NCBI RefSeq assembly: GCF_023078335.1
Contig: NZ_CP095550.1
Span: 1,532,001-1,596,000 of the forward strand
Origin: Metabacillus endolithicus
GTDB taxonomy: Bacteria > Bacillota > Bacilli > Bacillales > Bacillaceae
Direction of reading: 5' to 3'
DNA: 64,000 bases
Made by a program: the position numbers and the translations under genes. Under the pieces are notes generated by a model that made no database searches, had not been told where the DNA came from, and saw only the letters and a list, made by a program, of their open reading frames with translations. This document shows positions 11,009 through 31,996 of this stretch, one piece after another (the first letter of the stretch is position 1; the number at the start of each line of letters is the position of its first letter).

Positions 11009-14000
11009 TTAAGCTCTTTTAAATGGCCACCAATTTGCTGCTCCAAATGTTTTTACCATAACTGGAATAAATAATGGTAATACAATGAGAGCATATAACA
11101 GTAGTCCTGTTAGAATAATAGATGCTATTTGAATAAGAGATAACATGCCTGATGGAATCATCGCTGCAAATGTCCCACCTAAAATGACAACAGCCGAAAT
11201 AATAACTGTTCCCATTTTCTTCATCGCGAGCAGCATCGCTTCACCAACTGAAAGATCTTTATATTCATTAAAGCGATCCATTAAGAAGATACTATAATCA
11301 ACGCCTAAGGCTACTAATATAACAAAGCCGAAGAATGGCACCGCCCAGCTAATTCCTGAATAACCCAAGATGTTAACAAAGATAACTTCATTAATTCCCA
11401 TAGCTGTATAATAAGTTAATATTAATGATCCAATAATATAGATTGGCATAATGATTGAGCGGAACAAGAAAACAAGAATAATAGAAATACCAACAAGCAT
11501 CAAAACAACTGTACGTGAATAATCGTTATTAGACATTGTACTTAAGTCAGCATTTGTACTTGTAATTCCACCAATAGCCACCTTTGCATTTTCAAGCTTT
11601 GTATCTTTCGTAGCTCTTTCAATTGCTGCATTTAACTCATCTACTTGATTAATCGCTTCATTTGAATAAGGATTTGCTTTGAAGATGACATCAAGCGTCA
11701 TGACTTTACGATCGTCAGACAAGTAGGTGTCTAAAGCTTGTTCGAAGTCCTCACTCTCTAACACTTCTTCTGGTAAATAAAATCCTGATTCAGATGATTG
11801 AGATAAATCTGCTAAATAATCTTGAGCTGAGCCAAGACCATCAGACACCTTATTCAAACCGTCAACACTTTGCGCTAATCCATCTGTTAATTGACTCATT
11901 TGACCATTTAAATCACCAAATCCATCAAGTAATTGTTGCTGTCCTTTTGTTACCTCTGAAAGACCATTTGAAACTTGCGGAATACCGTTAACGGCTTGAC
12001 CTTGGTAATCGGCAAGCTGATTTAAGCCTGCTTGTTGCTGATCAATTCCTTGAATTAGTTGTTGAAGTCCGTTTACAATTTGCTGCTGTCCTTCAATTAA
12101 TTTTTGGAATTGACCATTCGCTGTGTTCATTCCGCCTTGAATTGCTGCAAGTCCAGTATTTAACTCCTCAATTCCTCCAGATAATGTTGGCAATTGAGTT
12201 TGTGCAACATTTTGGACTGTACCCTTAATTGCAGCATAATTTGAATCTTCCGCTAGTCCCACATATGCTTCATTATTTTCTAAAGCCTCAAAATCTGAAT
12301 TCAACGATTTTAGTACATCTGATAAATCAGAGATACCTGAACCAATTTTGACATATCCACTATTTAAATTACCAATATTTGTTTCAACATCTTGGTATCC
12401 CTTTAATAATTGTTTACTTCCTTCTAAAGCTTGTTCAGCCCTGCCTTAGTTTTTGCTAATCCGTCTTTTATATCACCTGAACCAGCTGAACCTTGACGAA
12501 TTCCTTCTTCGATTTTCGCTAAATTAGTTTGAAGTTCTGACACACCTGAATTAAGCTTTGTCGTCCCAGTAATTAAATCACCAATACCGTCAGTTGCTTC
12601 TTTCAACTTTGGTGCAGAACCTGCCATTTCACTTTCTGCTTCAGCTAAACCATCACTGATTTTTTCGATTCCTTCATTACCATCTCCAAGGCCTTCTTCA
12701 AGACTTTCTGCTTGTTTTGATACATAAAAGTCTTCAATTTTCTCTCCAGTCGGTCTTGTTACAGAACGAACAGTGTCAACTAAATCAACCTTTTCTAATT
12801 CCTTCGTAATTTTCTCAGCGAGAGCAATGTATTCGGTAGAACCCATCTCTTCATCATTCTTAAGAACTACTTGAGTTGGCATTGAATCCCCAGGTCCAAA
12901 GCTATCCGATATAGCATTAAAGGCTTTTATTGAATTATAATCTCCACCTATTTCCTCAAGAGAATTAAATGATAATTCTCCATCATAGAAAGCTAAAAAC
13001 GGCACAGATACACATGCAACAACAAGAAGTGCAATAAGAGGTCTTGCGAGAGAAAAACGTCCAACAACTCCCCATATTTTGCTATCTTTGTGCTCTAATG
13101 TTCCTTTTGATGGCCAGAAGATTTTGTTTCCTAACACTGCCATAAAAAATGGAACAACAGTGAATAAAGCTATTAAAAGAATGGCAACTCCTACTGCTAC
13201 AGCTGATGCTGATTGATACAATTTAAATTGTGAGAAGCCAATAGCAGCAAACCCAATCATAACAGCCAAGCCACTAAAGAAAACGGTTCTTCCCGCGTTA
13301 CGATATGTCTCAACTATTGCCTCTGTGACACTCTCTTTATGTGATAACTCTTCTTTAAAACGACTTAATAAAAGGATACAATAATCTGTCCCGATTCCAA
13401 ATAATACAGCCACTAGGAAGATTTGTGTAAAGTTGGATATCGGAAAATTCATTACATCAACCAGCACAGAAACGATTGATTGTGATGCTAAGTAGGTAAG
13501 ACCTACTGTTATTAAAGGTATGATTGGTGCAATAATTGATCGGAAAACTAACAGTAAGACAGCTAAAATAAAGACAACTGTAATTCCCTCAGTCTTCTTT
13601 AGACCTTCCTGTGAGCTTGTCATAACATCCTGATCAATCATCCAGCCACTTGTATAATAATGTTCAACATTTACGTCTTCAATTGTTTTATAGAGTAAAG
13701 CAGATATCTCTTTTGCTTCACGATCATTTCTGTTAATTGTCACATTAGCAAGAATCGTTTTTCCATCTTCTGAAACTAACTGCTCTTCTAATGCTTCCTC
13801 GTTAAAATGAGTTAAAATATCCGTAACATCTAATTCTTCATTTTCTTCTAACAAGTGAATCGCTTTTTCAGCTTCCTTCATTTCTTCATTCGTTAATTTA
13901 TTATCATTATGAAAAACGAGAGCTGCTGAAATTTCATCGCCTACACTTTCTTTCGCCTGGACTTCATTCATGATCTCGTCGGCTAACGATGATGAATAAC

Positions 14001-14130
14001 CATCAGGCACACTAACCTGGCCTTTTTCCTTTACTAGGTCCGCCATGTTAGGAGCAACTAAAAATAATCCTACAACGATCGCTACCCATCCGATGATAAC
14101 AAGCCATTTTGCTTTTATAATTGCGTTCAC
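11009..14130 (-). pseudogene. MmpL/YdfJ-family RND exporter, one-base frameshift
   Basis: As one gene (GTG start after GGAGGAG) it would give about 1040 residues: two six-helix MMPL domains flanking a long coiled-coil segment rich in GL..G repeats (residues about 480–760). The first part ends at a stop near 12424 (after KAGLNKL). The frame that continues the coiled coil (AEQALEGSKQLLKGYQD) is open from about 12440 to the end. Adding one G to the GGG run (plus-strand CCC, 12439–12441) joins them exactly. The family exports lipids, siderophores or drugs, driven by protons; key residues are GIGTDYCILLLSRFKEE and ALGVDYSIFLMDRFNEY. It is co-transcribed with the MarR gene, which probably represses it. 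Error or real inactivation cannot be told apart here. Confidence 0.85.
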
Positions 14131-18082: not shown

Positions 18083-18481
18083 TTATCTAATGATCTTAAA
18101 ATAAACATCACGTCGTCTTGGGCCATCAAATTCACAGAAGTAAATTCCTTGCCATGTTCCAAGTAATAATCTTCCATTTGTAACGATTATTGTTTGTGAG
18201 CTGCCAACAGTGCTCGCTTTCATATGTGCTGCCGTGTTACCTTCTCCATGTAAATCTTTTACAAGTTTCCATGGGTAAACTTCATCAAAGCGTCGCAACA
18301 TATCAGTTTTAACATCTGGGTCGGCATTTTCATTGATCGTAATTCCAGCAGTTGTATGTGGACAATATACCAAAACTGCACCCTCGTCCGTATTCTGCTC
18401 ATTTATGAACGATTGAACTAAATGCGTGACTTCAATCATTTCATCCCGTTTATGAGTTTCTAACGTGTGTTTCCTTAACAT
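18083..18481 (-). CDS. YjbQ-family (UPF0047) protein
   Basis: This 132-residue protein starts at the ATG after AAAGGAG. Family signatures are [37 protein letters not shown] and [16 protein letters not shown]; the conserved His and Glu residues form the family's metal-binding site. Weak thiamine-phosphate-synthase activity has been reported for a member, but the cellular role is open. It stands alone, followed by about 100 bases with only a weak hairpin. Confidence 0.9.
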
Positions 18482-18649
18482 AAAAAATCTCCTTTCTATT
18501 CCTATTAACACTAGTATATACCGTTAAAAGCAGTCTCTTAAACATTTTCGTTTCATAAATAGAATTGAAAACACAGTTAAGAAAAAAACTAGTCCAACTT
18601 AACATAACAGGTTCGGTTTACGGTTCAACTCTTCAAGAATCACCAAGAT

Positions 18650-18805
18650 AAGCTACTAAGCGTAGAAACTCCTCTTATTGAGGAAATAGCACAAAAAATA
18701 GATTAAATAGACGGAAAGATTCCGCCTATTTAATTGAAAAAGATGAAAATGGACCATTTTACTTTACTTAACCGGAAAAACTCCGCTTATTGAAACTATC
18801 ATCGG
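18650..18805. repeat. Array of three related CGGAAA..TCCGC hairpin units in a 500-base intergenic stretch
   Basis: Three diverged copies of one palindromic unit lie in a row, centred near 18669, 18718 and 18779. They read TAAGCGTAGAAACTCCTCTT, AGACGGAAAGATTCCGCCTA and AACCGGAAAAACTCCGCTTA. Each can fold as a hairpin with AAATAG/CTATTT-like arms. The 18482–18981 stretch otherwise shows no gene. It is probably a degenerate dispersed repeat. Confidence 0.5.
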
Positions 18806-18981
18806 TTACTCAATTAATCCGTCACTCAGACATCCCCCTGGTAGTTACATATCATTTTTAGCTCACCAACTGGAAAAACAATGAGCATTTCATGCAGACA
18901 AAACTTTATGTCTCCATGTTAAAAGTGGTTCGAAATTCAGAGCGAATTTACCGTTCATTTTAATAAGCCCATACAAATCAA

Positions 18982-19022
18982 CAAAAAAGAAGCAGTCTTA
19001 TTCATTTGCGAATAGGACTGCT
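18982..19022 (-). terminator. Terminator of the hybrid kinase gene
   Basis: AGCAGTCTTATT / AATAGGACTGCT stem with an A-run on the plus-strand left side. Confidence 0.82.
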
Positions 19023-19094
19023 AATTGGCGTTCTAATTTAGTTTTTGTATCGAGTAACCAAATCTGTTAATTTTACAAAACTAGTTTTTTTCTT

Positions 19095-21986
19095 TTATTT
19101 ATTGTCATCTCCATTTTCACTAGGAATAAGGATTTGACCACTCCAGTCCTTTTTAAGCAAAGTCTGAAGAATCAACTTTGACAGCTTGCTTGGTTGATAA
19201 GGTTTTATTAGGTATTCGTTAGCTCCAAGAGCCAAGCCCTTTTCTTTTTCATCTAAAGCCGTTGAAATAAAGATTGGTATTGACTTAAATTCATCTATTG
19301 CTTTTAATTCCTTAATAATTTCCCAACCATCAAGCCCTTTTTCCTCTAACATGATATCCAGGACAATAGCATCTGGCTTTTCTTCTTTTATTGCTGCTAA
19401 TGCCTCTTCCCCATTACTGTAGATTTTTACATAAAAATGACTTTCCTCTAATTCTGTTTGCAGAAGATTTGCAAGACTGTTATCATCTTCAACAATAATG
19501 ACATTCACTTTCCCCTTGTTTTCCTGATCATGTGGCTTATCATCTTGAAGATTTCCTCCAATAACTAATGGAAAGCTAACAGTAAAAGTACTACCTTCTT
19601 TTAATACAGATTGTACGAAAACATCACCTTCATGGGCTTTCATGATTTCTTTTACAATAGCTAAACCTAGTCCTGTTCCACCGATTCTTCTTCTATCAGA
19701 ATTATCTACTCTATAAAACTTCGTAAACAATTTATGAATTGCATCTTCCGGGATCCCAAGACCTTGGTCTTTAACGGAAACATTCAAATTAGGTCCTTCT
19801 TCAAATACATTTATTAAGATGTCTCCTCCATCTGGAGAATATTTAATAGCATTGCTTATTAAATTATTAAATACTTGGCCAATCTTATCTTTATCTCCTA
19901 ATACCATCGTATTACTTGTCTGAATATCACAATGTATAGTGTGAGAAGGGTTATTCACTTGATATGTTTCAATAATATTCATGATAAGCGGTACGAGATC
20001 ATCGTACTTTTTATCATAAGTTTGTTTTCCGGCTTCCATTCGTTGAACATCCAGGAAATCATTAATTAAAGCTGTCAATCGCTTCGCTTCTTGGTAAATG
20101 GTTGTTAAATATTTTCTTTGTCGTTCAGGCTTTAATTCCTTATTCAGCATAAGTTCTGTAAAGCCAAGAACACTTGCTAGAGGTGTTCTAAGTTCATGGC
20201 TTACGGTACTGACAAATTCAGACTTCATTACATCAACTTCATATTCCTTTGTGATATCACGGTGAACAATAACGGTTCCGAATTTTTCACCTGCTCTAGT
20301 CAGCGGTTCACAATATACTTGAACCACACGATTAGCAGGACTATGTTGATGATAGATAAAAGAAGATTGATCTGTTTTACCGTCTATGAGAATTGAGTCA
20401 AAAAATTGTTTTAATTCTTGTTTATTTTCAACAGAATTTGTTAGCCTCGAAAGCCATTTTTCATATGAATCATCAACAAGTGTATCTCGATGACATTCAA
20501 TAATATCACATATTTTTTGATTAACCTGTATCACTTTACCCTTTACATCAATCAGCTGAATTCCTTCATTAATAGTATCTAGAATATCTTGTGTTAATAA
20601 ACGCTCTTCCTCAGAATGTTCAAAAATATGAATTTTATCTAGAGAAATGGCAATTTGTTTGCTAAGTCCGTCATATTCCACTAATTCATCCTCTTTGAAG
20701 GATGTAGAATATCTTGAATAGACCATAATAGCCTCCATCTCACCTGATGATGATAGTACAGGCATATACAGATCGTAACAATAGGATTTAGCAAGATGGA
20801 ATCCTTTTTCTTCCTCATTGCACTCTCGTTTTATTGTATAAGGTTTTCTAAGATCCTTTAACTTCTCAATTTCACCAGAATTTATGTTATGAATAAATTG
20901 CTCTACACCTTCTGAAGAAAGACCAATACTAGCATGTTGATGTGTGCGATCCATCACAACAACAACCCCTTTATCGCCCCCTATTACCTCACACATTGTT
21001 TGCACAATACTGTCCAATACTTTTTGTTTATCTAGTGTATTAGCAATACCTTTTACAAGGTCATTACGTCTCTTAAGATCCAGCTCTCTTTTTTGAGCAA
21101 TTTCTAAAGCTTCTTCAAGCTCAGTTTGCTGTGCCTGTAATTCATCCTGCTGAGCTAGTAACTCTTCATTCTGTGCACTAAGGTCTTGCTCCTTATCTTG
21201 TATACTCTTTGTCATTTTCTCAAATGCAGAAGAAAGTAGCCCTAATTCATCTTGTCGATTGGATGTATCAGTGAATAAAATAGGATTTCCATCTGTTATT
21301 TGACCTGCAGCAAGGGTTAGCTTATTTAAAGGAATACCGATATTGTTCAGCATTTTTCGAACAAAACCAACCATAGCTATGATTAACAATAATAGAAATA
21401 CACCAAACAATGTTTGACTTAATGCAATTTTACTTCTTTGTTCGTCTTTCAGTATGGTAAGCTGCTCTTCAAGTTTTGTTGTATATTTCTTGATATTATC
21501 TTGATATGTTCGTATTGTATCTGAACCATTTTGATTTACAGCTATTTGATAAACTTGATCTTCTTGATTACTATCATAAAGCGCCTTGGACTTTGGCATA
21601 ATATCTTCAAAATAATATTGATAAAAGTCCTTTGTTTGCTGGATAAATAACACATCTTCTTCCGTATCAGCAACACTTTCTAACTCTTCTATTTTTCCAA
21701 CAACTTTGTCTCTTTGTTTTAAAACTGCATTATAATACGTTTCTTCACCTTTATACGCAAAATAGGCTCTCATTTCTGAAATTGCTAAATTGAAGGAGTA
21801 ATCCAAGTCTGAAACAATTGTTTCTTTTACTTCCAATTTTCTACTTTCACTATCAAAGTTATCCAAAATTGAGTTTTCATAAATCATCAAAGCCGCTACT
21901 AAAAGGCTAAAGACTAAAATAATCGTGAAAGTCAAAACACCATATTGTCTTGCCAAACTTGTTTTTATATATTTATCGAGCTTCAC
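19095..21986 (-). CDS. Hybrid sensor histidine kinase (CHASE3-like–HAMP–GAF–PAS–HisKA–HATPase–REC)
   Basis: This 963-residue protein has helices at about 16–36 and 188–210 bracketing an extracellular helical sensor (CHASE3/four-helix-bundle like). These are followed by HAMP (about 212–265), a Gln/Glu-rich coiled coil (about 265–305), GAF (about 310–455), PAS (about 465–585) and HisKA with SHELRTPL. HATPase boxes are NNLISNAIKYS, DQGLGIP and GGTGLGLAIVK. A C-terminal receiver (about 830–950) has VEDD, the acceptor Asp in IVLDIML and Lys in LIKPY. With its own receiver it should feed a phosphotransfer (Hpt) domain. The only Hpt seen nearby is in the GGDEF protein at 28117–29730. The gene overlaps the lone receiver gene by 14 bases. 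Confidence 0.9.
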   Translation of the reverse strand: MKLDKYIKTSLARQYGVLTFTIILVFSLLVAALMIYENSILDNFDSESRKLEVKETIVSDLDYSFNLAISEMRAYFAYKGEETYYNAVLKQRDKVVGKIEELESVADTEEDVLFIQQTKDFYQYYFEDIMPKSKALYDSNQEDQVYQIAVNQNGSDTIRTYQDNIKKYTTKLEEQLTILKDEQRSKIALSQTLFGVFLLLLIIAMVGFVRKMLNNIGIPLNKLTLAAGQITDGNPILFTDTSNRQDELGLLSSAFEKMTKSIQDKEQDLSAQNEELLAQQDELQAQQTELEEALEIAQKRELDLKRRNDLVKGIANTLDKQKVLDSIVQTMCEVIGGDKGVVVVMDRTHQHASIGLSSEGVEQFIHNINSGEIEKLKDLRKPYTIKRECNEEEKGFHLAKSYCYDLYMPVLSSSGEMEAIMVYSRYSTSFKEDELVEYDGLSKQIAISLDKIHIFEHSEEERLLTQDILDTINEGIQLIDVKGKVIQVNQKICDIIECHRDTLVDDSYEKWLSRLTNSVENKQELKQFFDSILIDGKTDQSSFIYHQHSPANRVVQVYCEPLTRAGEKFGTVIVHRDITKEYEVDVMKSEFVSTVSHELRTPLASVLGFTELMLNKELKPERQRKYLTTIYQEAKRLTALINDFLDVQRMEAGKQTYDKKYDDLVPLIMNIIETYQVNNPSHTIHCDIQTSNTMVLGDKDKIGQVFNNLISNAIKYSPDGGDILINVFEEGPNLNVSVKDQGLGIPEDAIHKLFTKFYRVDNSDRRRIGGTGLGLAIVKEIMKAHEGDVFVQSVLKEGSTFTVSFPLVIGGNLQDDKPHDQENKGKVNVIIVEDDNSLANLLQTELEESHFYVKIYSNGEEALAAIKEEKPDAIVLDIMLEEKGLDGWEIIKELKAIDEFKSIPIFISTALDEKEKGLALGANEYLIKPYQPSKLSKLILQTLLKKDWSGQILIPSENGDDNK

Positions 21987-22338
21987 CTAAAATCTCCTCA
22001 ATTCTTTCAACCAGCTGTATTGGGCTAAAAGGCTTTGACATAAAATAATCCGCTCCCGCTTCTAGTACCTTTTGCTGATCTGTTGCCTGACTCTTTGCAC
22101 TTAGCATCATGATTTTTGTTTGTATGTTTTCCTTTCGTATCAACTCAATTAATTCTAAGCCGGTATAAACAGGCATCATATAATCTAGCAGAATAAGATC
22201 ATAATCATTCTGCTTGATAAGATCGTACGCCTCTTGCCCATCACAAGCTTCATTAATTGAATACCCCTCATCTTCAAGAGTATCAACAACGAGCATTCGT
22301 AACACTTCTTCATCTTCTGCAAGTAATATTTTTGACAT
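21973..22338 (-). CDS. Single-domain response regulator (CheY/Spo0F-like receiver)
   Basis: This 121-residue protein is a receiver domain with no output domain: AEDEEVLR acidic pair, acceptor Asp in LILLDYMMP, Ser in MMLSAKS and Lys in FMSKPFSP. Lone receivers usually shuttle phosphoryl groups in a relay, like Spo0F, or bind a partner. It is co-transcribed with the hybrid kinase directly downstream. A terminator-like hairpin separates it from the glycosidase-like gene upstream. Confidence 0.92.
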   Translation of the reverse strand: MSKILLAEDEEVLRMLVVDTLEDEGYSINEACDGQEAYDLIKQNDYDLILLDYMMPVYTGLELIELIRKENIQTKIMMLSAKSQATDQQKVLEAGADYFMSKPFSPIQLVERIEEILGEAR

Positions 22339-22368
22339 ATGCTTTAACTCCCTACATCGCTTTCTTTT

Positions 22369-22411
22369 AAAAATCTCAGACTCGTATAAAATTCACAAGT
22401 CTGAGATTTTT
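22369..22411 (-). terminator. Hairpin between the glycosidase-like gene and the lone receiver gene
   Basis: AAATCTCAGACT / AGTCTGAGATTT, a 12-bp stem with a 15-base loop. It would end or weaken the long upstream transcript, leaving the receiver and kinase genes partly independent. Confidence 0.75.
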
Positions 22412-22416
22412 TTGGG

Positions 22417-25400
22417 TTATTCGTTAATATTGGTATTTTTAAATGTTTCCTGCAGATCATTGTAAGACTTCTTCAAGCGTTCATGATATGTTGGTTCATC
22501 CCAATTATCCCAAGAATATTGGATCCAATCACCTTCTAAAGAAGGTACCATCTGAACAGGGTCCTGGTCTTTATTTGTTACAACAACCTTTGCAAAAAGA
22601 GATTGGATTTTTTCTGAGCTAGCTATTCCTTTTTCTGACCACACATCGCCCATAATTTCTTTTTGACTTGGATCTTTCACATTAATCATTAACCAAGGAA
22701 GACGAAGTTCTAAAGTTCCATCCTTTATATAGTAATCCGCAAGGGAAGTTGAGTTCTCCTTTTGTGGATTGGCTACACCATATGTTAATTTTCCTGTCTC
22801 ATATGATGAAAAAGGAACAGTCATTTGTCCTTCTTCTTTATTTATCGTCAATTCTTTGTTAAGTGTTAAGCGTATTGGGTGATAAATTCCATTATTTTTT
22901 TTATTAGCATAATCTTTTGTCTCAATCATATTAAGCACTTTTCCATAATGATAGTAGAACGTATCATAGTAGCTATCAACTAACACTCTTGATTGATCCT
23001 CACCGTTAAGCTCAACTAGAAAATCAATACCTTCTTCATTAACACCTTTCACATTAGGAATGGTCGATTGCCCTTGATTTTTTATCGTGTTTAACAGAAT
23101 CGACGTATTATATTTTTCTGGATTCCATTTTGTTTGATCATAATCAATTCTTATGAATAAACCTCGTTCATCACTAGACATGAAAACATTTTTTATTGGC
23201 TCTTCTTTATTACTTTGAGCAAGCGGGTCTGCATTTCTGGCCTTCCAATCAGAAGTGTCACCATCAATTTGCAACTGAGTTTCTTCCGTATCAGGATCAA
23301 AGCTTAACAGCCCAAAATGTTGCTCATTTGTCTGAATATTATCCCAAAATGGTCGACGATCAGGATTATCATATTCCATCGTATTCCATGTTCGTTTAAA
23401 CCACTCATCCTGCCATGAGAAAACAAGTCCTCCCGCCATGTTTTGTTCAACAATATCTTCATATAGGCTCGATAGAAATTGACCTTGTTCTTGTTCTGAA
23501 TGATTTCCTTGGTCATAGCCATGGACGTTTTCATGAGTTAACCCTCGTGATGCTGGAATTCCATACTCAGCAACGACCACTGGCATATCGTGATGTTCTT
23601 TCATATCATTTAAGTAACCAGCATAGTTATTCTTTTCCCCACGATGATCAATAAAGTTAACATATTTCTCCTCATAATTTAGGAAGTCCGGATAATAAGG
23701 GTAAATATGGTATGAAGCAAACAAACCTGGATAAAACGATTCCTTGGCTTTTATCTTGTTCGGATTAATAGACACCTTGTCTTCATCCTCACTAGGTTCA
23801 GCAGGGTGTGTTAACAAATCAGTTGTTACCCAATTAGTGAAACTCATTGGATGCTGCCATTGATAGTGTTCCGCTTCATATGATGCTGTATAATCCATCA
23901 TTTCAGCGAGCCACACTTCAAATGCAGAAGCATTTGAAGTCGCCATATACTTCCCGTCATAATTGGTTTTAGTAGGATATTTTTCATTCGTCCTAATTAC
24001 ACTATCAGGATCCCACTCAACTCCAATGATCCACCCTAGAAGATACGGAGATAGATCATGAACATATTTTCCACTTGCATGACCTGTTCTTTCTTCAATG
24101 TCGGCATTTCCATGAATAATATCAACTGTTCGCTGTATTTCCGCCTTAAAATCATCCATTACTTCCGGATCATAGGCCGTTCTTTTCGCTTCTGCATCAA
24201 AAAATACATCTTCATTTACCCATACACCGTGAAAGAGATAAAGAGGATCTTCACGGCTAATGTTATGCTCATATAATGCCTGATAAAAGGCAGGCGGATG
24301 AATGGTATAAACACGTAAAGCATTAGCATTCATTTCACTTATTTGGTCAAACCATCTTGCATATTCTTGTTTTGTTATGCCTGTTTCTCCAGGGAAAGTC
24401 CCTGGTTTGGCGATTCCCATATTAACACCTTTAATTAGGACATCTTCCCAGGCTCCGTTTTTATAAACTTGAAGGTAATCTTCATTAGCAGCTCCAATTA
24501 ATTTCATTCCTTCTTTTGTTAAAACCTCTGGTTCAACTTTTGCATTTTGACTAACAGGTGCTTTCTCTCTTTCTGTTAAAATGGTAGTCATCATCGGTAC
24601 GTAAGCTTTCCAAAAGAATGTATCTGTTCTACCCTTTTGCTCAAAAGAAAACAGCTTTTGCCACATCGACAAACCACTCATTTGATAAATACTTGGTACT
24701 TTCTCCTGATCAACAAAATCACCTGCAAAATAATAGCTATCATACATTTGATTATTATGGTGAATAACAGCTGGGAACTTTGTTGGTATATTAAATTCGT
24801 TTAGCTTTTGTTTACCACTATCAGTTAATGGTAAATCAAACGTAGCTTGGACCTCTTCCTCACTACGTGCATTTACTATATCAAACCAATAGTTATATTG
24901 AACGGTCTTATCCATATCAAATGTAGACAATCCTTTATCAGTAAGTGTAAATAAAGCATGGTCATCAGATGTATCTTTGTTCGTCAAAACAACCACTTGA
25001 TCTTCTTCGTTTACAAAAACAAAACCGTTTCCCGTATACTCAAAAGGCTTTCCATATTGGGCTTCATAGTTATTTTTCACCCAAATAGGCACTTCAGCAT
25101 TGCTTAATTCATTGAAATATCTTCCCATCCAGCCTGTCCAATCTATGTTTAACAGATTATAAAACTCCTGACGAACCTTCTCTTCCGTTGGGGATCCAAA
25201 TGTATTAAATTCAGCAATAAGCGTTTGTTCATTTTCAATAAGAGAGGCTGATAATGCTCTAACCTCTTCAATTGTCATCCCACCGTACAATAACTCTGAA
25301 CGATTTCCTTCTTGATTCCCTTCAAGATATTCATCTTTATACACACCATATCCATCAGCTAAATACAACACATCGTAAGGAGATAAATCGTCCGGAAATT

Positions 25401-25677
25401 CTCTCGTATCAAATTTTGGTGGCTCATTACTTGGCACAAATCCAACATAATCATCTTGTGCCTTGTATACATCACCATCATCCTTAGTCAATTTCAGATG
25501 ATTAAGTAACCACACTAACCCTTTATGTTCCCGATAAGACTGATCAGGAACCGTTTTATCAATAATCAATACGTTGACATTTTCACTTGCTTTTAATTGC
25601 CAAAACCAAAAAGGAGAAGTGAATAAAACTAGTAGTAATAACAGTCCAGTGATAATCAGTACATTTTTTTTATTCAT
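22417..25677 (-). CDS. Large membrane-anchored glycoside-hydrolase-like protein with C-terminal carbohydrate-binding-like domain
   Basis: This 1086-residue protein starts at the ATG after AAAAGGTGTG, overlapping the glycosyltransferase stop. Residues about 4–24 are a signal-anchor; the rest is extracellular. Residues about 30–380 are of unknown fold. Residues about 385–830 look like a TIM-barrel glycosidase: GVNMGIAKPGTFPGE, NANALRVYTIHPPAFY, the candidate acid Glu in GWIIGVEWDP and the candidate nucleophile Glu in VVVAEYGIPASRG. Residues about 850–1060 resemble a CBM9/DOMON-like domain (LQIDGDTSDWKAR). Next to a processive synthase, it may trim, transfer or release the polymer. The exact GH family is not recognised; catalytic residues are proposed from pattern only. 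Confidence 0.65.
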   Translation of the reverse strand: MNKKNVLIITGLLLLLVLFTSPFWFWQLKASENVNVLIIDKTVPDQSYREHKGLVWLLNHLKLTKDDGDVYKAQDDYVGFVPSNEPPKFDTREFPDDLSPYDVLYLADGYGVYKDEYLEGNQEGNRSELLYGGMTIEEVRALSASLIENEQTLIAEFNTFGSPTEEKVRQEFYNLLNIDWTGWMGRYFNELSNAEVPIWVKNNYEAQYGKPFEYTGNGFVFVNEEDQVVVLTNKDTSDDHALFTLTDKGLSTFDMDKTVQYNYWFDIVNARSEEEVQATFDLPLTDSGKQKLNEFNIPTKFPAVIHHNNQMYDSYYFAGDFVDQEKVPSIYQMSGLSMWQKLFSFEQKGRTDTFFWKAYVPMMTTILTEREKAPVSQNAKVEPEVLTKEGMKLIGAANEDYLQVYKNGAWEDVLIKGVNMGIAKPGTFPGETGITKQEYARWFDQISEMNANALRVYTIHPPAFYQALYEHNISREDPLYLFHGVWVNEDVFFDAEAKRTAYDPEVMDDFKAEIQRTVDIIHGNADIEERTGHASGKYVHDLSPYLLGWIIGVEWDPDSVIRTNEKYPTKTNYDGKYMATSNASAFEVWLAEMMDYTASYEAEHYQWQHPMSFTNWVTTDLLTHPAEPSEDEDKVSINPNKIKAKESFYPGLFASYHIYPYYPDFLNYEEKYVNFIDHRGEKNNYAGYLNDMKEHHDMPVVVAEYGIPASRGLTHENVHGYDQGNHSEQEQGQFLSSLYEDIVEQNMAGGLVFSWQDEWFKRTWNTMEYDNPDRRPFWDNIQTNEQHFGLLSFDPDTEETQLQIDGDTSDWKARNADPLAQSNKEEPIKNVFMSSDERGLFIRIDYDQTKWNPEKYNTSILLNTIKNQGQSTIPNVKGVNEEGIDFLVELNGEDQSRVLVDSYYDTFYYHYGKVLNMIETKDYANKKNNGIYHPIRLTLNKELTINKEEGQMTVPFSSYETGKLTYGVANPQKENSTSLADYYIKDGTLELRLPWLMINVKDPSQKEIMGDVWSEKGIASSEKIQSLFAKVVVTNKDQDPVQMVPSLEGDWIQYSWDNWDEPTYHERLKKSYNDLQETFKNTNINE

Positions 25678-27079
25678 TTGACACACCTTTTCTAACCATT
25701 TCTCCCCAGCCTTTTTTCCCTATAAGCATCTCAAGCATTCCCTCTACTCTCCAAATAACGGTAAGAGGGCGATACCAAAATGTTTCTGTTATAGAAACAA
25801 GAAATAAAATGACAAAATGTTTCACTTTAGGATATCTTTCCATACTCCATTCCTCTAATAAAACAGAGGCCATAGAATAGATGGAACCGTATATTAATGA
25901 GAGAAGAAAGAAGATAATAGCATACTCTAAATAGATACTTCCTGCAAAAATAGAAAGTATTAGGATTATATATCCTATTAATTCAATGAACGGACCTAAA
26001 AACTCAACAAAAAAGAAATATGGCATAGAGAACATGCCAATTGAGCCGTACTTTGGATTAAACATTAATTTTCGATGCTTCCATAAACTATCAAATAAGC
26101 CTTTATGCCATCTTTTTCTTTGACGTCTTAAATATTTTATGGATTCCGGGGCCTCAGTCCAACAAACCGGGTCAGGTACATAGATAATCTTTTTGTTTTC
26201 TTTCTTTTCTTTAATCAATCGATGAAGCCTAACGACAAGCTCCATATCCTCTCCTACAGTGTGAGCATAGCCTCCTGCTTCAATAACCCACTTCTTTGAA
26301 AAAACACCAAATGCACCTGATACGATCAGCAATAAATTATTTTCACTTAACCCTACTCTGCCGGTTAAAAATGCTCTTAAATACTCAATAATTTGCATAA
26401 CGACAAGTGGTTTCTTTGGAAGATCTATCTTTGTAAGCTCACCATTCTGTATTTCACAGCCATTAGCGATTCTAACACTCCCACCTGAGGCTATGACCTC
26501 GTCATCTGATTCAATAATTGGCTTTAATACCTTCAAGAAAGCATTTCTTTCAATAATGGAATCGCCATCTAAGGAGCAAAAATAAGGATATTTTGTAAGA
26601 TTAATTCCTGCGTTTAGCGCATCTGCTTTTCCCCCATTTTCCTTATCAATGACATACATATAAGGATAAATCGTGGATTGGTAAACAGCTTTGACTTCTT
26701 TTGTATCCAACTGCTTTCTTATAACTCGGTTAATTTTCACCATATTAAATCGGTCAATTAGCTTTTCAAGTGTATCGTCTTTTGAACCATCATTGATGAT
26801 GATAATTTCATATTCAGGATATTCAATACTTATCAGTGAGCGGATACTCCCATAAATTCCTGCTGATTCATTATAGGCGGGTACAAGAATGGAGACAGGC
26901 TTAGTAAATTCAGATTGAAGCAATTCTTCATAAGGTTCAAACTCATCTAACTCATAATTTTTACGTATATTGAGTAGGGAAATAACAAGCATAGCTCCAT
27001 ACACAACAATAATGATGATCATGTAGATAAAGATAAACCAACTACCAACTACTAACAAACTAGACCAATTAATATTCAA
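25670..27079 (-). CDS. Processive family-2 glycosyltransferase (BcsA/IcaA/HAS-like polysaccharide synthase)
   Basis: Starting at a TTG just after AAAGGAGGG, the protein has 469 residues. One N-terminal helix pair (about 5–35), a cytosolic GT-A domain and about four C-terminal helices give the synthase topology. All catalytic motifs are present: LVPAYNESAG, NDGS, the DxD motif in SLDGDSII, GEDMELVVRLHRL and the processivity motif RRQRKRWHKG. It should build and export a beta-linked polymer; which sugar cannot be told. No PilZ cyclic-di-GMP domain is visible, so control must be through partners. It lies between the HEAT-repeat and glycosidase-like genes. Confidence 0.9.
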   Translation of the reverse strand: MNINWSSLLVVGSWFIFIYMIIIIVVYGAMLVISLLNIRKNYELDEFEPYEELLQSEFTKPVSILVPAYNESAGIYGSIRSLISIEYPEYEIIIINDGSKDDTLEKLIDRFNMVKINRVIRKQLDTKEVKAVYQSTIYPYMYVIDKENGGKADALNAGINLTKYPYFCSLDGDSIIERNAFLKVLKPIIESDDEVIASGGSVRIANGCEIQNGELTKIDLPKKPLVVMQIIEYLRAFLTGRVGLSENNLLLIVSGAFGVFSKKWVIEAGGYAHTVGEDMELVVRLHRLIKEKKENKKIIYVPDPVCWTEAPESIKYLRRQRKRWHKGLFDSLWKHRKLMFNPKYGSIGMFSMPYFFFVEFLGPFIELIGYIILILSIFAGSIYLEYAIIFFLLSLIYGSIYSMASVLLEEWSMERYPKVKHFVILFLVSITETFWYRPLTVIWRVEGMLEMLIGKKGWGEMVRKGVSNE

Positions 27080-28115
27080 CGCCCTCCTTTTCAAGCCATT
27101 CAAGGGCCATATCTTTTGCAAAATCATCATTTGAATCTGATACGACTTTTCGTAATATGTCTACCCCACCCTTAAACTGTAAAATTGCTTTGGCTGCCTC
27201 AGAACGAACAACATACTCACGATCTGATAATAATGCAACTAAACTATCTTTAAATGAACTTATTCTTCTAACACCCGCAGCTTTTGCTGCCATCATCCGA
27301 ACTTGCCAGCTTGTTGATTGAAAAAACTTACTTAATATAGCTTCATCTAAAGGTGCCCCTGTATTAGCGAAAGCCTTTAAGGTTCTAATCCTCAACTCTT
27401 CGTCATTATTCTCAAGTAATTTTTGCATTAGATTAACGTGATTTAAATATTGTTTTTTCCCGATCGTCTCAATCATCATGTATTGCATTTGTTTTGATAA
27501 TGACCCAAAGTCATCTGCTAGTTCATTAAAATGCTCTTCTTTCAAGAGAGATAAAATAGATAATAGCGTAAAATTTGAAATAGCTGGATCAACATCCTTT
27601 AAATAATAAACAATCTTATTGTCATGAAATTTAGCAAAAAGATTTAGCATCTGAAATTTTTCAGTACGTGTTACATTTTTTTTAACATATAATTTATGCA
27701 GCTCATCTACTAGGTGATCCATATAAAAATCCTCAATAGAATATAAAGCATTCATTCTTAAGCTCCATCGCCGTTGCTTTAGTTCACTTTTTATATAATT
27801 TGTTAAGTGTTTTTGCGCAAATTCGCTTATTCTTCCTTTTACATCCTCACTATCAAGTACATTTGAATATTCATTAAGCAATTCAATTAGTGCAATAAAT
27901 TTCTCTTCGGTTTTATCAGGTTGCAAATCCCCTTCTTCACCCGATTGTAGAAAATGAAACATATCTAAGCGATATGTTTCTTTAAGATCATCAATTTTTA
28001 TCCTTTTTTGATTATGAAAATGCTTTATAATAAGCAAATACGTAAACAAACTAATTAAGATAAAAAACATTGCCAGAAATAAAATAAAAAGCAACACTAA
28101 ACTTATCTCAAACAT
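27069..28115 (-). CDS. Membrane-anchored HEAT-repeat protein
   Basis: This 348-residue protein has an N-terminal helix (about 5–32) and a cytosolic alpha-solenoid. Helical repeats are visible from about 105 onward, clearest in RIRTLKAFANTGAPLDEAI, WQVRMMAAKAAGVRRI and YVVRSEAAKAILQFKGGVDILR. HEAT solenoids bind other proteins. Sitting one base after the GGDEF gene and overlapping the synthase gene, it is a good candidate for a docking or signal-relay subunit of the synthase. No enzymatic motif is seen. The coupling role is inferred. Confidence 0.8.
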   Translation of the reverse strand: MFEISLVLLFILFLAMFFILISLFTYLLIIKHFHNQKRIKIDDLKETYRLDMFHFLQSGEEGDLQPDKTEEKFIALIELLNEYSNVLDSEDVKGRISEFAQKHLTNYIKSELKQRRWSLRMNALYSIEDFYMDHLVDELHKLYVKKNVTRTEKFQMLNLFAKFHDNKIVYYLKDVDPAISNFTLLSILSLLKEEHFNELADDFGSLSKQMQYMMIETIGKKQYLNHVNLMQKLLENNDEELRIRTLKAFANTGAPLDEAILSKFFQSTSWQVRMMAAKAAGVRRISSFKDSLVALLSDREYVVRSEAAKAILQFKGGVDILRKVVSDSNDDFAKDMALEWLEKEGVEY

Positions 28116-28116
28116 A

Positions 28117-29730
28117 TTATTTCATCCTCTTAATTAAGTGACCTAATCGGGTTTCAAGCTCTAATAATTTAAACGGCTTTGTTATATAATCATCTGCCCC
28201 TAGCTGCAAAGCCCTCGAGATGTCATGTTCACTTTTTCGGGATGTTAGCATCATCACTGTAAATCTTTCCTGATATTGAAGACTTCTTAATTTCTGCAAT
28301 ACTTCCAATCCATCCATTCTCGGCATCATGCCATCAAGTATGAGTAAGTAAGGATCTTTGGTATTAAGATGCCACCCTGCTTCCATAAACTCCATACCAT
28401 CTTTGAATGTTTTAATATCAAGAGTAAATCCATCTGTAAACTTACTTTTACTGATTAAATCCTCAAGCATTGTACGAATAATTGGATCATCATCAATAAT
28501 TCCAATGTGAATTGGCTTTTTAGAATACTTGACATTATTTACTGCAGCAACTTTCACCTGATTTCTACCAGACTCTTTCGCCTCGTAAAGCGCTCCATCT
28601 GCAATCTCTATATTCTCTTTTAAATCCAATTGAGTTGGGTGCACTTCATGTATACCTGCCGAGAACGAATTATAGAATTCAGAATCTCCAAATTTAAAAA
28701 CCGTGTTGGAAAATTCCTTTAAAATTCGCTCAATAACAAGTTTTGCCTCATTTGCTTCTGTTTCAGGTAGAAGAATAATAAATTCCTCTCCACCATACCG
28801 AATGATGATGTCATTAACTCTTAGACCCTTTCTAACAACATCAGCAAATGTTGCTAAAACCTCATCTCCTACTGTATGACCGTATGTGTCATTTACTTGT
28901 TTAAAATGATCTAAATCAATAAGTGCTAAGCAAAATGGCTCATACCTTCTATTTAAATTACTAATCAGCCTGTCATATGTTTGAGCTAGGTATTTCCTGT
29001 TATAAACCCTTGTTAACTCGTCTATTAACATCACATCGTCAATTGCTTGTTTTCGCTCAAGTTGGCGGTTTATCCTTACAATAAATTCATCCATCTCCAA
29101 AGGTTTTTGTATGAAATCGTCAGCACCCAGCTTATAGCTCTGCATTCTGATTTCCTTTGATTTATCAACACTAATCATGATAGTAGGAATGAACTGCTGC
29201 TTCATTTTTTCTTTTATTTGTAACAATACATCTAATCCATTTTTATCTTTCATATGAACATCAATGACAACACAATCAGGATTTAAGTCATAATAAGAAT
29301 AAATAGCACGGTCTGGATCAGCAACAGCGATCACCACCCAACCTTCTTTCTCTAATTCATCCTTAAGGTACATTAATAATGCCGTATCATCATCGATTAG
29401 CAAAATAAGGTTTTTATCTTCATACTCTTGTTTGTTCTCAATAATTTCATCAACATTGGAATACTCTTCATAATAAATAATGGAAATAAGGGGTAGCAAA
29501 AAAGCTTGCAATTCCTCTTTGTTCCAAACTCGTTCTTCATGCTCCTTTAAATGGCTCATCAATTCTTGAGCCATATCTCCAGCTTCAGAAAATCCAATTG
29601 TTGCGGCAGTTCCAGATATGGAGTGAAGAAAACGATAAAGTTCTTTATGTTGTATTTCTTGTTGTTCATTTAACCAAGCTTCAAGCTGTTTTCGAACATT
29701 CTTTATTAAAGTTTGCAAATATTTACTCAT
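28117..29730 (-). CDS. Hpt–REC–GGDEF–REC diguanylate cyclase response regulator
   Basis: This 537-residue soluble protein has four domains. Hpt (about 1–95) has the phospho-His motif FLHSISGTAATIG (His36). REC1 (about 107–225) has LIDDD, VVIDVHM and QKPLE. GGDEF (about 230–395) has an intact RYGGEEFIILL loop and an RVND inhibitory site five residues before it, so it should make cyclic-di-GMP with product feedback. REC2 (about 410–537) has IIDDD, LILDGMMP and TKPFK. The Hpt can take phosphate from the hybrid kinase receiver encoded downstream. It is the first gene of the polysaccharide operon, starting after GTAGGAGA. Confidence 0.9.
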   Translation of the reverse strand: MSKYLQTLIKNVRKQLEAWLNEQQEIQHKELYRFLHSISGTAATIGFSEAGDMAQELMSHLKEHEERVWNKEELQAFLLPLISIIYYEEYSNVDEIIENKQEYEDKNLILLIDDDTALLMYLKDELEKEGWVVIAVADPDRAIYSYYDLNPDCVVIDVHMKDKNGLDVLLQIKEKMKQQFIPTIMISVDKSKEIRMQSYKLGADDFIQKPLEMDEFIVRINRQLERKQAIDDVMLIDELTRVYNRKYLAQTYDRLISNLNRRYEPFCLALIDLDHFKQVNDTYGHTVGDEVLATFADVVRKGLRVNDIIIRYGGEEFIILLPETEANEAKLVIERILKEFSNTVFKFGDSEFYNSFSAGIHEVHPTQLDLKENIEIADGALYEAKESGRNQVKVAAVNNVKYSKKPIHIGIIDDDPIIRTMLEDLISKSKFTDGFTLDIKTFKDGMEFMEAGWHLNTKDPYLLILDGMMPRMDGLEVLQKLRSLQYQERFTVMMLTSRKSEHDISRALQLGADDYITKPFKLLELETRLGHLIKRMK

Positions 29731-29801
29731 TGGGTCTCTCCTACTTAAAACGAATATTTACATTTATCTCTTCTCTCCATATAACCATATTTTGGAGGGG
29801 A

Positions 29802-29830
29802 ATTCTAGAAAAAAGTTTATATTCTGACAA
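29802..29830 (-). promoter_or_regulatory. Candidate sigma-A promoter of the polysaccharide/phosphorelay operon
   Basis: TTGTCA, a 16-base spacer, then TAGAAT on the minus strand, about 75 bases before the Hpt-REC-GGDEF-REC start. Confidence 0.5.
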
Positions 29831-29849
29831 GATTCGACTTTCGCAACAT

Positions 29850-30533
29850 TTATTCTCTGTTCCCCTGTGAAAAGATCGCAATAAACTTTAGTAGTTGTAG
29901 CAAAGAAAGCAAGGCAGCAGCCACATAAGTTAAAGCAGCAGCACTTAATACTTTACTTACCCCTCTTTCCTCATTATTAACAATCATACCTTCAGAAAGC
30001 ATCAATTTTTTTGCTCTTGAACTTGCATTAAATTCTACCGGCAAAGTAATAAGCTGAAATGCTACAACTGCTGAGAAAAATATGATTCCTAAGCCAATTA
30101 AATTTAAACTACCTAATAAAAAGCCACCTAATAACAAAAATGGTGCAATTCCTGAAGTAAAGTTCACAATCGGAAACATTTTATGTCGTAAAACGAGTGC
30201 ACCGTAAGCTTCACTATGTTGAATAGCATGTCCAACCTCGTGTGCTGCAACAGAAATTGCTGCAATCGATTGACTTCCATATACCGAATCCGATAATCTA
30301 ACAGCCTTTTTTAAGGGATCATAATGATCTGTCAGAGACCCTCTCACATGTTCAACCGGCACGTCCGATAACCCGTTTCGATCGAGTAACTGCCTTGCAA
30401 TCTCAGCCCCAGTCATGTGAGAAGATGCTGACACCTTAGCATACTTTTCAAAATTCCCCTTAACTCGAAACTGCGCCCATAAAGAAAGACCAAATGCAAT
30501 AATGATTAAAAAATCCAATGGATGAAAAAACAT
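29850..30533 (-). CDS. yugP: Neutral zinc metallopeptidase, YugP family
   Basis: This 227-residue membrane protein has the zinc motif HEVGHAIQHSE and the preceding YGSQSIAAISVAAHE helix, plus three or more membrane helices. It matches YugP of B. subtilis in length and in position next to mstX–yugO. The family is probably an intramembrane or membrane-associated protease; the substrate is unknown. From here on, gene order follows the B. subtilis yug region. Confidence 0.9.
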   Translation of the reverse strand: MFFHPLDFLIIIAFGLSLWAQFRVKGNFEKYAKVSASSHMTGAEIARQLLDRNGLSDVPVEHVRGSLTDHYDPLKKAVRLSDSVYGSQSIAAISVAAHEVGHAIQHSEAYGALVLRHKMFPIVNFTSGIAPFLLLGGFLLGSLNLIGLGIIFFSAVVAFQLITLPVEFNASSRAKKLMLSEGMIVNNEERGVSKVLSAAALTYVAAALLSLLQLLKFIAIFSQGNRE

Positions 30534-30744
30534 GTTGATTTCCTCCCTGTAACAAGTACTTTATTATGGTTAGTTTAATCAAAACAATGATTTCTACCAT
30601 ACAAAATTTCATATGGTTTCTTTTGCTTAATCCGCAAACTATAAACAGAAGGTGTACATACTAAAAAAATGGACATTTATTAAGATAGGTTAGTGACAAC
30701 GCTTTGTATACGCTTCAAATGCTAAAAGTTAGGAAGTGAAACTG

Positions 30745-30990
30745 TTGAAAGTAAATGAAGAAGAAAAGAAATTACTTAGTGAAGCAATCGATAAAATGAA
30801 TGAAGGGTTAGACTCCTTTATTGGTTTTTATAATGATTCTGAAGAAGATAAAGCACTTATTGAATTCTCAGAGGATACAATTGAGACGATTGAAAAGGCC
30901 ATTGAAACATATGGAAAAGACGAGGTAACAACCAAAATTAATACAATTATTAAAGAAGTTTTATCTTTTATACCAAATAAGAAAGGATGA
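30745..30990 (+). CDS. mstX: MstX (Mistic), membrane-associating helical protein
   Basis: This 81-residue acidic protein runs from the TTG after AGGAAGTG; a GTG nine bases upstream is inside the ribosome-binding site. It resembles Mistic, the four-helix protein that inserts itself into membranes: SEAIDKMNEGLDSFIGFYNDSE and TKINTIIKEVLS closely match the remembered B. subtilis sequence. It corresponds to the short form without the first helix seen in other bacilli. It lies directly before yugO, as in B. subtilis, where the pair affects biofilm formation through potassium flux. Confidence 0.88.
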   Translation: MKVNEEEKKLLSEAIDKMNEGLDSFIGFYNDSEEDKALIEFSEDTIETIEKAIETYGKDEVTTKINTIIKEVLSFIPNKKG

Positions 30991-30999
30991 GTTTACAAC

Positions 31000-31996
31000 A
31001 TGGCAAAATCAAATAAAACCATAACACAATGGTTGCGTTGGCCAATTCATTTTCGTATTACCCTTATCGTTCTACTCATCATTTTAGTGTTTGGTGAAAT
31101 CATTACTCTTATAGAGCCAAACGAGTTTCCAACAACATTTGATGGAATTTGGTGGTACTGTTGTAACTGTCTCTACTGTTGGATTTGGCGATTATGTCCC
31201 ACAGACGTACCTTGGGAGAGGCATCGCTATGTTAATGATTTTAGCTGGAGCTAGCTTTGTAACCGCTTATTTTGCTAGCGTTTCTTCAGCAGCGATTAAA
31301 AGACAGCACTCCTACCTTGAAGGAAATGTGACGTTTTCGGGTAAAAATCATGTAATTTTAATTGGGTGGAATGAAAAAGCAAATGAAATGATTGATTCTT
31401 TAAAAACCGTTAAGCCATATAAACAAATTGTCTTAATAGATGACTCATTAAAAGAATCACCATTAATTGAAAATGTTCATTTTATCCGTGGAAATCCTGC
31501 CAATGAACAAACTTTACTTAAAGCCAATATCCAAGAAGCTGATGCAGCTATCATCACTGCTGATCAGCACAAAAATGAACAAGATGCTGATATGAACTCT
31601 ATTCTTGTCCTGCTATCCCTAAAAGGACTAAATCCAAATTTATACTGTGTGATTGAATTGCTAACAGAACATCAAGCAAATAATGCTAACAGAGCCGGAG
31701 CAAATGAAATCATTAAGTCTTATAAATTAACAAGTCACTTTATTATGAGTAGTTACTTAGCGAAAAACGGTTTGTCATCATTTTATTCTGAGCTTAACCC
31801 TGCAAGCGGTAATTTATTTCAAGTTCTTCCGGTAAATAAAGAGCTGATTGGCAAAACCTTCAAAGATGCAAGTCACCAACTCCTCGAAAAAGAATCTATT
31901 TTAATTGGCATAAAAAGAGGAGAGGACACGAAAGTAAATCCGCCCCTCTCCTTTGAAATACAAGATCATGATTCTTTAATAGTGTTTACTCACTAA
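31000..31996 (+). pseudogene. yugO: YugO potassium channel (2TM pore plus TrkA-N), one-base frameshift
   Basis: As one gene it would give 331 residues (B. subtilis YugO is about 328). The first helix and pore helix (EPNEFPTTFDGIWW) are in one frame. The selectivity filter TVSTVGFGDYVP, second helix and the cytosolic TrkA-N/TrkA-C domains (HVILIGWNEKANEM) are in the next. Deleting one T at about 31157 (TGGTGG-T-ACTGTT) restores WWTVVTVSTVGFGD. The break falls exactly at the filter, so as written the gene makes no working channel. It follows mstX by nine bases. Confidence 0.88.

Follow-up and report, generated by a model that had tools for sequence, protein, structure and literature searches.

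How a polysaccharide synthase without a PilZ domain might come under the control of cyclic diguanylate (c-di-GMP), and how one diguanylate cyclase could act on a single target when the genome has 20 GGDEF matches, are questions raised by six minus-strand genes of Metabacillus endolithicus, located within a 64,000-nucleotide stretch of contig NZ_CP095550.1 (hereafter, the window). An earlier reading of the letters alone (the sequence-only reading) had named these genes and proposed that a hybrid kinase controls a cyclase, and hence polymer synthesis, through a phosphorelay. The six genes are real, and this overall interpretation is partly supported by the comparative analysis reported here. We consider it probable, at roughly 0.56, that the genes encode a synthase-dependent polysaccharide system that includes its own phosphorelay, in which the product of the first gene (gene 1) would make c-di-GMP and also, in part, read it. 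The genes and the domains and residues of interest are as follows (all on the minus strand).

28117..29730: gene 1, Hpt-REC1-GGDEF-REC2; predicted to be a diguanylate cyclase and proposed as a regulatory subunit that reads c-di-GMP
29518..29703: Hpt domain of gene 1; phosphoacceptor H36, which is conserved, at 29623-29625; Pfam Hpt 31.6 bits (cut-off 24.6)
29050..29406: REC1, first receiver of gene 1; D157 at 29260-29262
28558..29025: GGDEF domain of gene 1; I-site RVND at 28810-28821 and GGEEF at 28780-28794, aligned to PleD 1w25
28147..28503: REC2, C-terminal receiver of gene 1; D466 at 28333-28335
28318-28320: residue 471 of gene 1, in REC2; basic, Arg in the window copy
27069..28115: HEAT protein, a single N-terminal hydrophobic helix followed by a HEAT superhelix; proposed synthase adaptor
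25670..27130: GT2 polysaccharide synthase; QxxRW at 26108-26122; the true start may be internal, many relatives being ~470 amino acids (aa) long
22417..25686: glycosidase-like protein with a membrane anchor, modelled as a TIM barrel; E557 (24016-24018) and E707 (23566-23568) are the catalytic candidates
21973..22338: lone receiver with D52 at 22183-22185, proposed to carry the phosphate at an intermediate step
19095..21986: hybrid histidine kinase with two hydrophobic segments, then HAMP-like, PAS, HisKA, HATPase and REC regions; H597 at 20196-20198 (HisKA) and D877 at 19356-19358 (REC)

Conservation of the gene set

Relatives of the HEAT protein occur in 14 of 21 genomes of the genus (the window's genome included), 16 of 80 of the family, 148 of 397 of the order (52 of 136 genera), and 95 of 398 of the class, where many matches span the last repeats only. 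We read 137 HEAT loci, that is, the window, 15 others from the family, one from a named Neobacillus, and those of 120 of the 148 order genomes, together spanning 30 families and 49 genera as labelled. The order genomes were fetched mainly among the better HEAT matches, so that weak relatives are under-sampled. Open reading frames (ORFs) were called with a simple script, and a kinase counted as absent when none of the seven following ORFs encoded it; the sequence stops at most six ORFs downstream in eight of the 45 kinase-less loci (L100, L110, L114, L162, L167, L171, L174, and L194).

The HEAT and GT2 genes are adjacent in 136/137 of these loci and in 8/8 loci fetched outside the order, which makes HEAT the constant partner of the synthase. 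Gene 1 lies directly upstream of HEAT in 124/137 loci (27 families, 45 genera), a lone receiver and kinase follow downstream in 92 (20 families, 30 genera), and a glycosidase is found within the next seven ORFs in 99 (83 on the same strand, 16 on the opposite one). Hence, the synthase appears to consist of the HEAT-GT2 pair, with the signalling genes as its usual but removable companions. The sequence-only reading had proposed looking for a conserved neighborhood across Bacillaceae; the set does recur together there, and it also reaches further, HEAT-GT2 pairs being found outside the order as well.

Some loci depart from this layout in individual ways. One carries gene 1-HEAT-GT2 twice in tandem, followed by a single receiver-kinase pair, and has a glycosidase relative on the opposite strand (L106; G405:C1:3095000-3114000). 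In L035 gene 1, and in L038 the kinase, is broken into two ORFs, through either gene disruption or sequencing error. An ORF of ~300 aa with a receiver match stands just upstream of gene 1 at 11 loci (L078, L079, L083, L084, L089, L121, L122, L124, L126, L138, and L144).

The kinase and the Hpt domain tend to occur, and to be lost, together

That the kinase and the Hpt domain belong together, as the sequence-only reading proposed, is supported by the loci that carry a kinase: gene 1 has an Hpt domain in 92/92 of them, and the Hpt histidine, the kinase histidine, the aspartate of the lone receiver, and that of REC2 are each intact in 92/92. Conversely, no kinase was seen at any of the 16 loci whose gene 1 lacks an Hpt domain, and the Hpt histidine survives in just 7 of the 32 loci that have gene 1 and no kinase in view. 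Three of these seven genomes have a strong kinase match (at least 150 bits) elsewhere (G237, G213, and G333), one has a full-length match on another contig (G440), and one a weaker match (G350), while the remaining two are a locus with a short GT2 ORF (L122) and a genome that is 89% complete (G068, locus L041). In one genus (g18), the Hpt domain is retained and its histidine is replaced by N, G, or R in 6/6 copies. On a HEAT+GT2 tree of 132 rows, from which five loci with a short or missing HEAT or GT2 were left out (L122, L141, L177, L178, and L190), there were eight supported independent comparisons; the histidine tracks the kinase in 5.5 of these and opposes it in none (median p 0.031), i.e., the direction of this co-loss is one-sided and its statistics are modest. 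At the level of whole genomes, 104 of the 397 order genomes have both HEAT and a full-length kinase, 44 HEAT only, 20 the kinase only, and 229 neither, corresponding to an odds ratio of 27 with kinship ignored.

The kinase also travels with gene 1 away from the synthase, which supports the kinase-Hpt link further. Among the 45 genomes that lack a local kinase, 41 were checked genome-wide, and nine of these have a strong match away from the synthase locus. We read six of the nine: in G305, G333, G170, and G263, the kinase and a lone receiver form a free-standing cassette with an Hpt-REC-GGDEF-REC gene; G206 has a second synthase locus, comprising gene 1, HEAT, GT2, receiver, and kinase; and in G213 the receiver and kinase stand by themselves, beside an unassigned 617-aa ORF. 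For the four genomes outside this check, a separate search gave a full-length match on another contig in G440 and partial matches in G185, G212, and G308. All three of the 20 kinase-only genomes that were read contain the free-standing cassette as well, bringing it to 7/9 of the kinase loci read away from a synthase. In the free-standing copies of gene 1, the Hpt histidine and GG[DE]EF are intact in 7/7, and the I-site motif RxxD and both receiver aspartates in 6/7. Outside the order, G560 has two gene-1 copies, a degenerate one next to HEAT and one that looks active and follows the kinase. In g42 (L100, L166, and L174), an Hpt-REC-GGDEF gene is found further downstream, and in G115 it is adjoined by a more distant kinase of 1084 aa.

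Proposed order of phosphate transfer

The route from kinase receiver to Hpt to receiver that the sequence-only reading drew is supported as far as the kinase-Hpt link is concerned, but not in naming the kinase's own receiver as the general donor. That receiver is missing from 13 of the 92 kinases, which rules it out as an obligatory donor, and all 13 loci keep both the Hpt histidine and the lone receiver; with the aspartate of the latter intact in 92/92, the lone receiver is probably the more general donor to Hpt. On the acceptor side, the REC1 aspartate is present in 78/92 kinase-bearing loci and absent in 14, excluding REC1 as an obligatory acceptor, vs. no loss at all for REC2, so that REC2 is most likely the final acceptor after Hpt. 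In the Spo0F-Spo0B-Spo0A relay, phosphate passes from a kinase to a lone receiver, then to a histidine carrier, and then to a final receiver. The same route is proposed here, and a Spo0F-like role fits the lone receiver, judging from these residue patterns; what differs is that the histidine carrier and the final receiver are fused in one cyclase, and that the output is not a transcription factor.

Gene 1 as a predicted cyclase and a proposed reader

Gene 1 of the window is predicted to be a diguanylate cyclase, with 148 bits to Pfam GGDEF, the metal-binding D272 in place, and, in support of the sequence-only reading, an intact active-site motif (GGEEF). Among its relatives, GG[DE]EF is kept in 89/92 loci with a kinase vs. 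11/32 without one. A gene 1 that lacks the motif nevertheless stays beside HEAT in 21 kinase-less loci, and RxxD is retained in 15 of the 21, mostly in two clades (in which it is complete, 8/8 in one and, in the other, 5/5 of the loci with gene 1). In the 20 of these copies that have a GGDEF-like region (L041 was left out of these counts), the I-site aspartate is kept in 16 and the arginine in 14, ranking second and third among the 47 columns conserved in the active set, while the first glycine of GGDEF is kept in one copy and D272 in two; 5 of 1081 column pairs match the I-site pair in retention. One degenerate copy (L105) reaches 24.3 bits to Pfam PelD_GGDEF, below the cut-off of 27, and the four other proteins scanned alongside gave no match. 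Further, GGDEF matches were found in all 41 kinase-less-locus genomes searched (2 to 48 each), indicating that c-di-GMP may be available there.

Such retention recalls two known receptors. In YdaK of B. subtilis, a membrane protein, RxxD stands five residues before the degenerate motif SDERI, and R202A or D205A each abolished the polymer (PMC5422440). For PelD of B. cereus, RxxD is likewise reported to be required for c-di-GMP binding (PMC7112168). Retention of RxxD is frequent among copies that lack the active-site motif, as it is in these two proteins, and gene 1 is therefore a likely c-di-GMP reader. The simplest reading of the series is an ancestral gene 1 that made and read c-di-GMP for its synthase, with only the reading function kept in some lineages.

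The HEAT protein as a proposed adaptor

In the GT2 protein, the DxD, ED, and QxxRW motifs and the hydrophobic segments of a processive synthase were all located, and the glycosidase model resembles a GH157/GH2-like TIM barrel with two candidate catalytic glutamates. No PilZ match was found at E 0.1 in the six proteins, in agreement with the sequence-only reading; the single PilZ match in the window's genome is outside the locus. That reading had accordingly suggested HEAT as the carrier or sensor of the c-di-GMP signal, for which we found no positive evidence, whereas the RxxD of gene 1 has some. We propose instead that HEAT is an adaptor. REC2 is the one domain present in all 124 gene-1 copies beside HEAT. 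Residue 471 of gene 1, just past the DG.MP motif of REC2, is basic (Lys or Arg) in 79/89 of the active HEAT-linked copies and 19/21 of the degenerate ones vs. 1/7 of the free-standing copies; among 537 columns, no other combines a single chemical class at 85% or more in the active set with 2/7 or fewer in the free-standing set. We predict, from this pattern, that gene 1 docks on HEAT through REC2. To our knowledge, a HEAT-repeat subunit of this kind has no counterpart in other synthases.

Proposed mechanism and alternative explanations

Under the preferred reading, the membrane kinase would phosphorylate either the lone receiver or its own, from which the phosphate would reach the Hpt histidine of gene 1 and then REC2; phosphorylated REC2 would turn on the GGDEF domain, and at least part of the reading of the resulting c-di-GMP would fall to the RxxD site of gene 1 itself. 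With gene 1 docked on it via REC2, HEAT would pass the state on to the GT2 synthase, and the anchored glycosidase would trim the polymer outside the cell. A more specific version, to which we give somewhat less than an even chance, places gene 1 as both writer and reader of c-di-GMP inside the synthase complex, with HEAT relaying the phosphorelay and messenger inputs, and holds that its relatives preserve a path toward separate writers and readers. The split end states would then be the free-standing relay cassette as writer and the degenerate GGDEF-pseudoreceiver protein beside HEAT as reader.

Several observations weigh against this mechanism or its parts. The co-loss of the kinase and the Hpt histidine rests on few independent events (the eight pairs above), and when the tree is limited to loci that keep gene 1, six comparisons are left, of which 3.4 go the same way and none the opposite way (median p 0.25). 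RxxD is lost in the degenerate copies of g20/g33 (3/3) and g120/g45 (2/2) and in L087, and 13 loci carry HEAT-GT2 without an adjacent gene 1. One free-standing copy (L206; G305:C1:3375000-3386500) keeps the Hpt histidine and GG[DE]EF and has neither RxxD nor either receiver aspartate, and the proposed route leaves it unexplained. In Neobacillus kokaensis (L015, gene 1 at L015:8821-9999), gene 1 is Hpt-REC-REC, i.e., the GGDEF domain has been lost and the kinase, lone receiver, Hpt, and REC2 kept, so phosphorylated REC2 may also act directly. Finally, residue 471 was first spotted by eye before the scan, and the free-standing set comprises only seven copies, which makes docking through it a prediction rather than a result.

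Alternatively, HEAT, or GT2 itself, could be the c-di-GMP receptor, with gene 1 merely supplying a local pool of the messenger. The near-invariant pairing of HEAT with GT2, its presence in the 13 loci without an adjacent gene 1, and the GGDEF matches in every searched genome without a local kinase would all suit this explanation, but we regard it as unlikely: the structures listed as matches to the HEAT model are HEAT/ARM superhelices (no c-di-GMP-binding fold is among them, which in itself excludes nothing), the conserved residues of HEAT look to us like ordinary repeat positions, and at 21 kinase-less loci gene 1 has lost GG[DE]EF and yet remains next to HEAT, mostly with RxxD, which a protein that only makes the messenger would have no need to do. 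Slightly less probable still is that phosphorylated REC2 gates HEAT-GT2 directly, with c-di-GMP being secondary or acting elsewhere. REC2 ending every HEAT-adjacent gene 1, its unbroken aspartate alongside the kinase, the GGDEF-less L015, and the link of residue 471 with HEAT all speak for such a switch; it does not, however, account for the retention of GG[DE]EF in nearly all kinase loci and in all free-standing copies, for a degenerate clade in which the REC2 aspartate has become Asn in six loci that keep RxxD, or for the REC2 aspartate missing from L206. That gene 1, the receiver, and the kinase only feed the global c-di-GMP pool, with the synthase controlled at the level of expression, is improbable, since, although cassettes without HEAT-GT2 and the many GGDEF matches of the window's genome would allow it, gene 1 precedes HEAT across 27 families and 45 genera and remains there, at kinase-less loci, without GG[DE]EF.

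Comparison with known systems

The gene set did not match the known yda, bcs, pga/ica, or pel layouts, as the sequence-only reading had stated, when the defining features of each were sought. The yda(J)KLMN operon of B. subtilis is likewise a polysaccharide operon with a GGDEF protein, and the degenerate relatives of gene 1 resemble YdaK (PMC5422440) in retaining RxxD. Unlike YdaK, however, gene 1 of the window has no hydrophobic segment, its GGEEF is intact, and Hpt and receivers are fused to it, i.e., it is not a membrane-bound degenerate GGDEF receptor; a HEAT protein also stands between gene 1 and GT2, and we set the two systems apart on these grounds, without sequence comparison to YdaL, YdaM, or YdaN. 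In the Pel systems of B. cereus and P. aeruginosa, PelD is a degenerate GGDEF protein in which I-site binding of c-di-GMP activates polymer synthesis, with a separate cyclase, CdgF, supplying the messenger, and the part of that description available to us contains no HEAT, Hpt, or kinase (PMC7112168); gene 1 of the window has no PelD_GGDEF match at E 0.1, and pel membership was rejected. The bcs and pga/ica systems have GT2 synthases as well, and bcs is controlled by c-di-GMP via PilZ (PMC8461298). Membership in bcs was rejected in view of the missing PilZ and of no BcsB match in the six proteins, and membership in pga/ica because GT2 scores 122.4 bits vs. an equivalog cut-off of 422.3 for PgaC/IcaA; no PgaB/IcaB deacetylase match was found among the six proteins either. 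Gene 1 shares with the PleD-type cyclases the REC-GGDEF order and the spacing of RxxD and GGEEF, but adds an N-terminal Hpt and a C-terminal receiver, the latter appearing to be the acceptor.

A literature search, with subscription journals mostly outside its reach, gave no description of this gene set among the titles and opening lines of abstracts listed. The set is shared by many Bacillus-like bacteria and is apparently undescribed. The principle that a GGDEF-fold reader switches a membrane synthase is known; what is new is the HEAT subunit, the fusion of relay, cyclase, and reader, and the series of split and degenerate forms. This series bears on how degenerate receptors of the PelD and YdaK kind could have arisen from active cyclases, since intact, split, and degenerate members of the gene-1 family occur across Bacillales and point to single residues that could be altered. 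Many species would also gain a candidate matrix system, given the spread of HEAT relatives through the order, and a HEAT protein would join the list of synthase subunits.

Other features of the window

Downstream of the kinase, at 18702..18734 on the minus strand, lies a terminator-like hairpin, which is a consensus match only (nine terminator-like sites vs. 5.7 in shuffled sequences). Promoter-like sites numbered 37, below the 48.8 of shuffled sequences, and were given no weight, and an Rfam scan of 18400-31000 returned zero families at gathering score. A zinc-peptidase gene upstream was set aside as a member of the system, since none was seen at loci outside the genus, judged by ORF length only; by the same measure, 11 of 13 other genus loci have an ORF in its position, 227 aa long as in the window at 10 of them and 255 aa long at the other.

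A second GGDEF protein, dCache_1 plus GGDEF, is encoded on the minus strand at 9207-10847, ~17 kb downstream of gene 1. Two adjoining minus-strand ORFs at 11009-14130 match MMPL transporters and represent either two genes or one split gene. On the plus strand, at 31000-31996, an apparent potassium-channel/TrkA-N gene is present as two overlapping ORFs in different frames and, by inspection, is seemingly broken; several relatives have a single ORF of 331-335 aa in the same place and orientation as this putative pair, a correspondence of position only.

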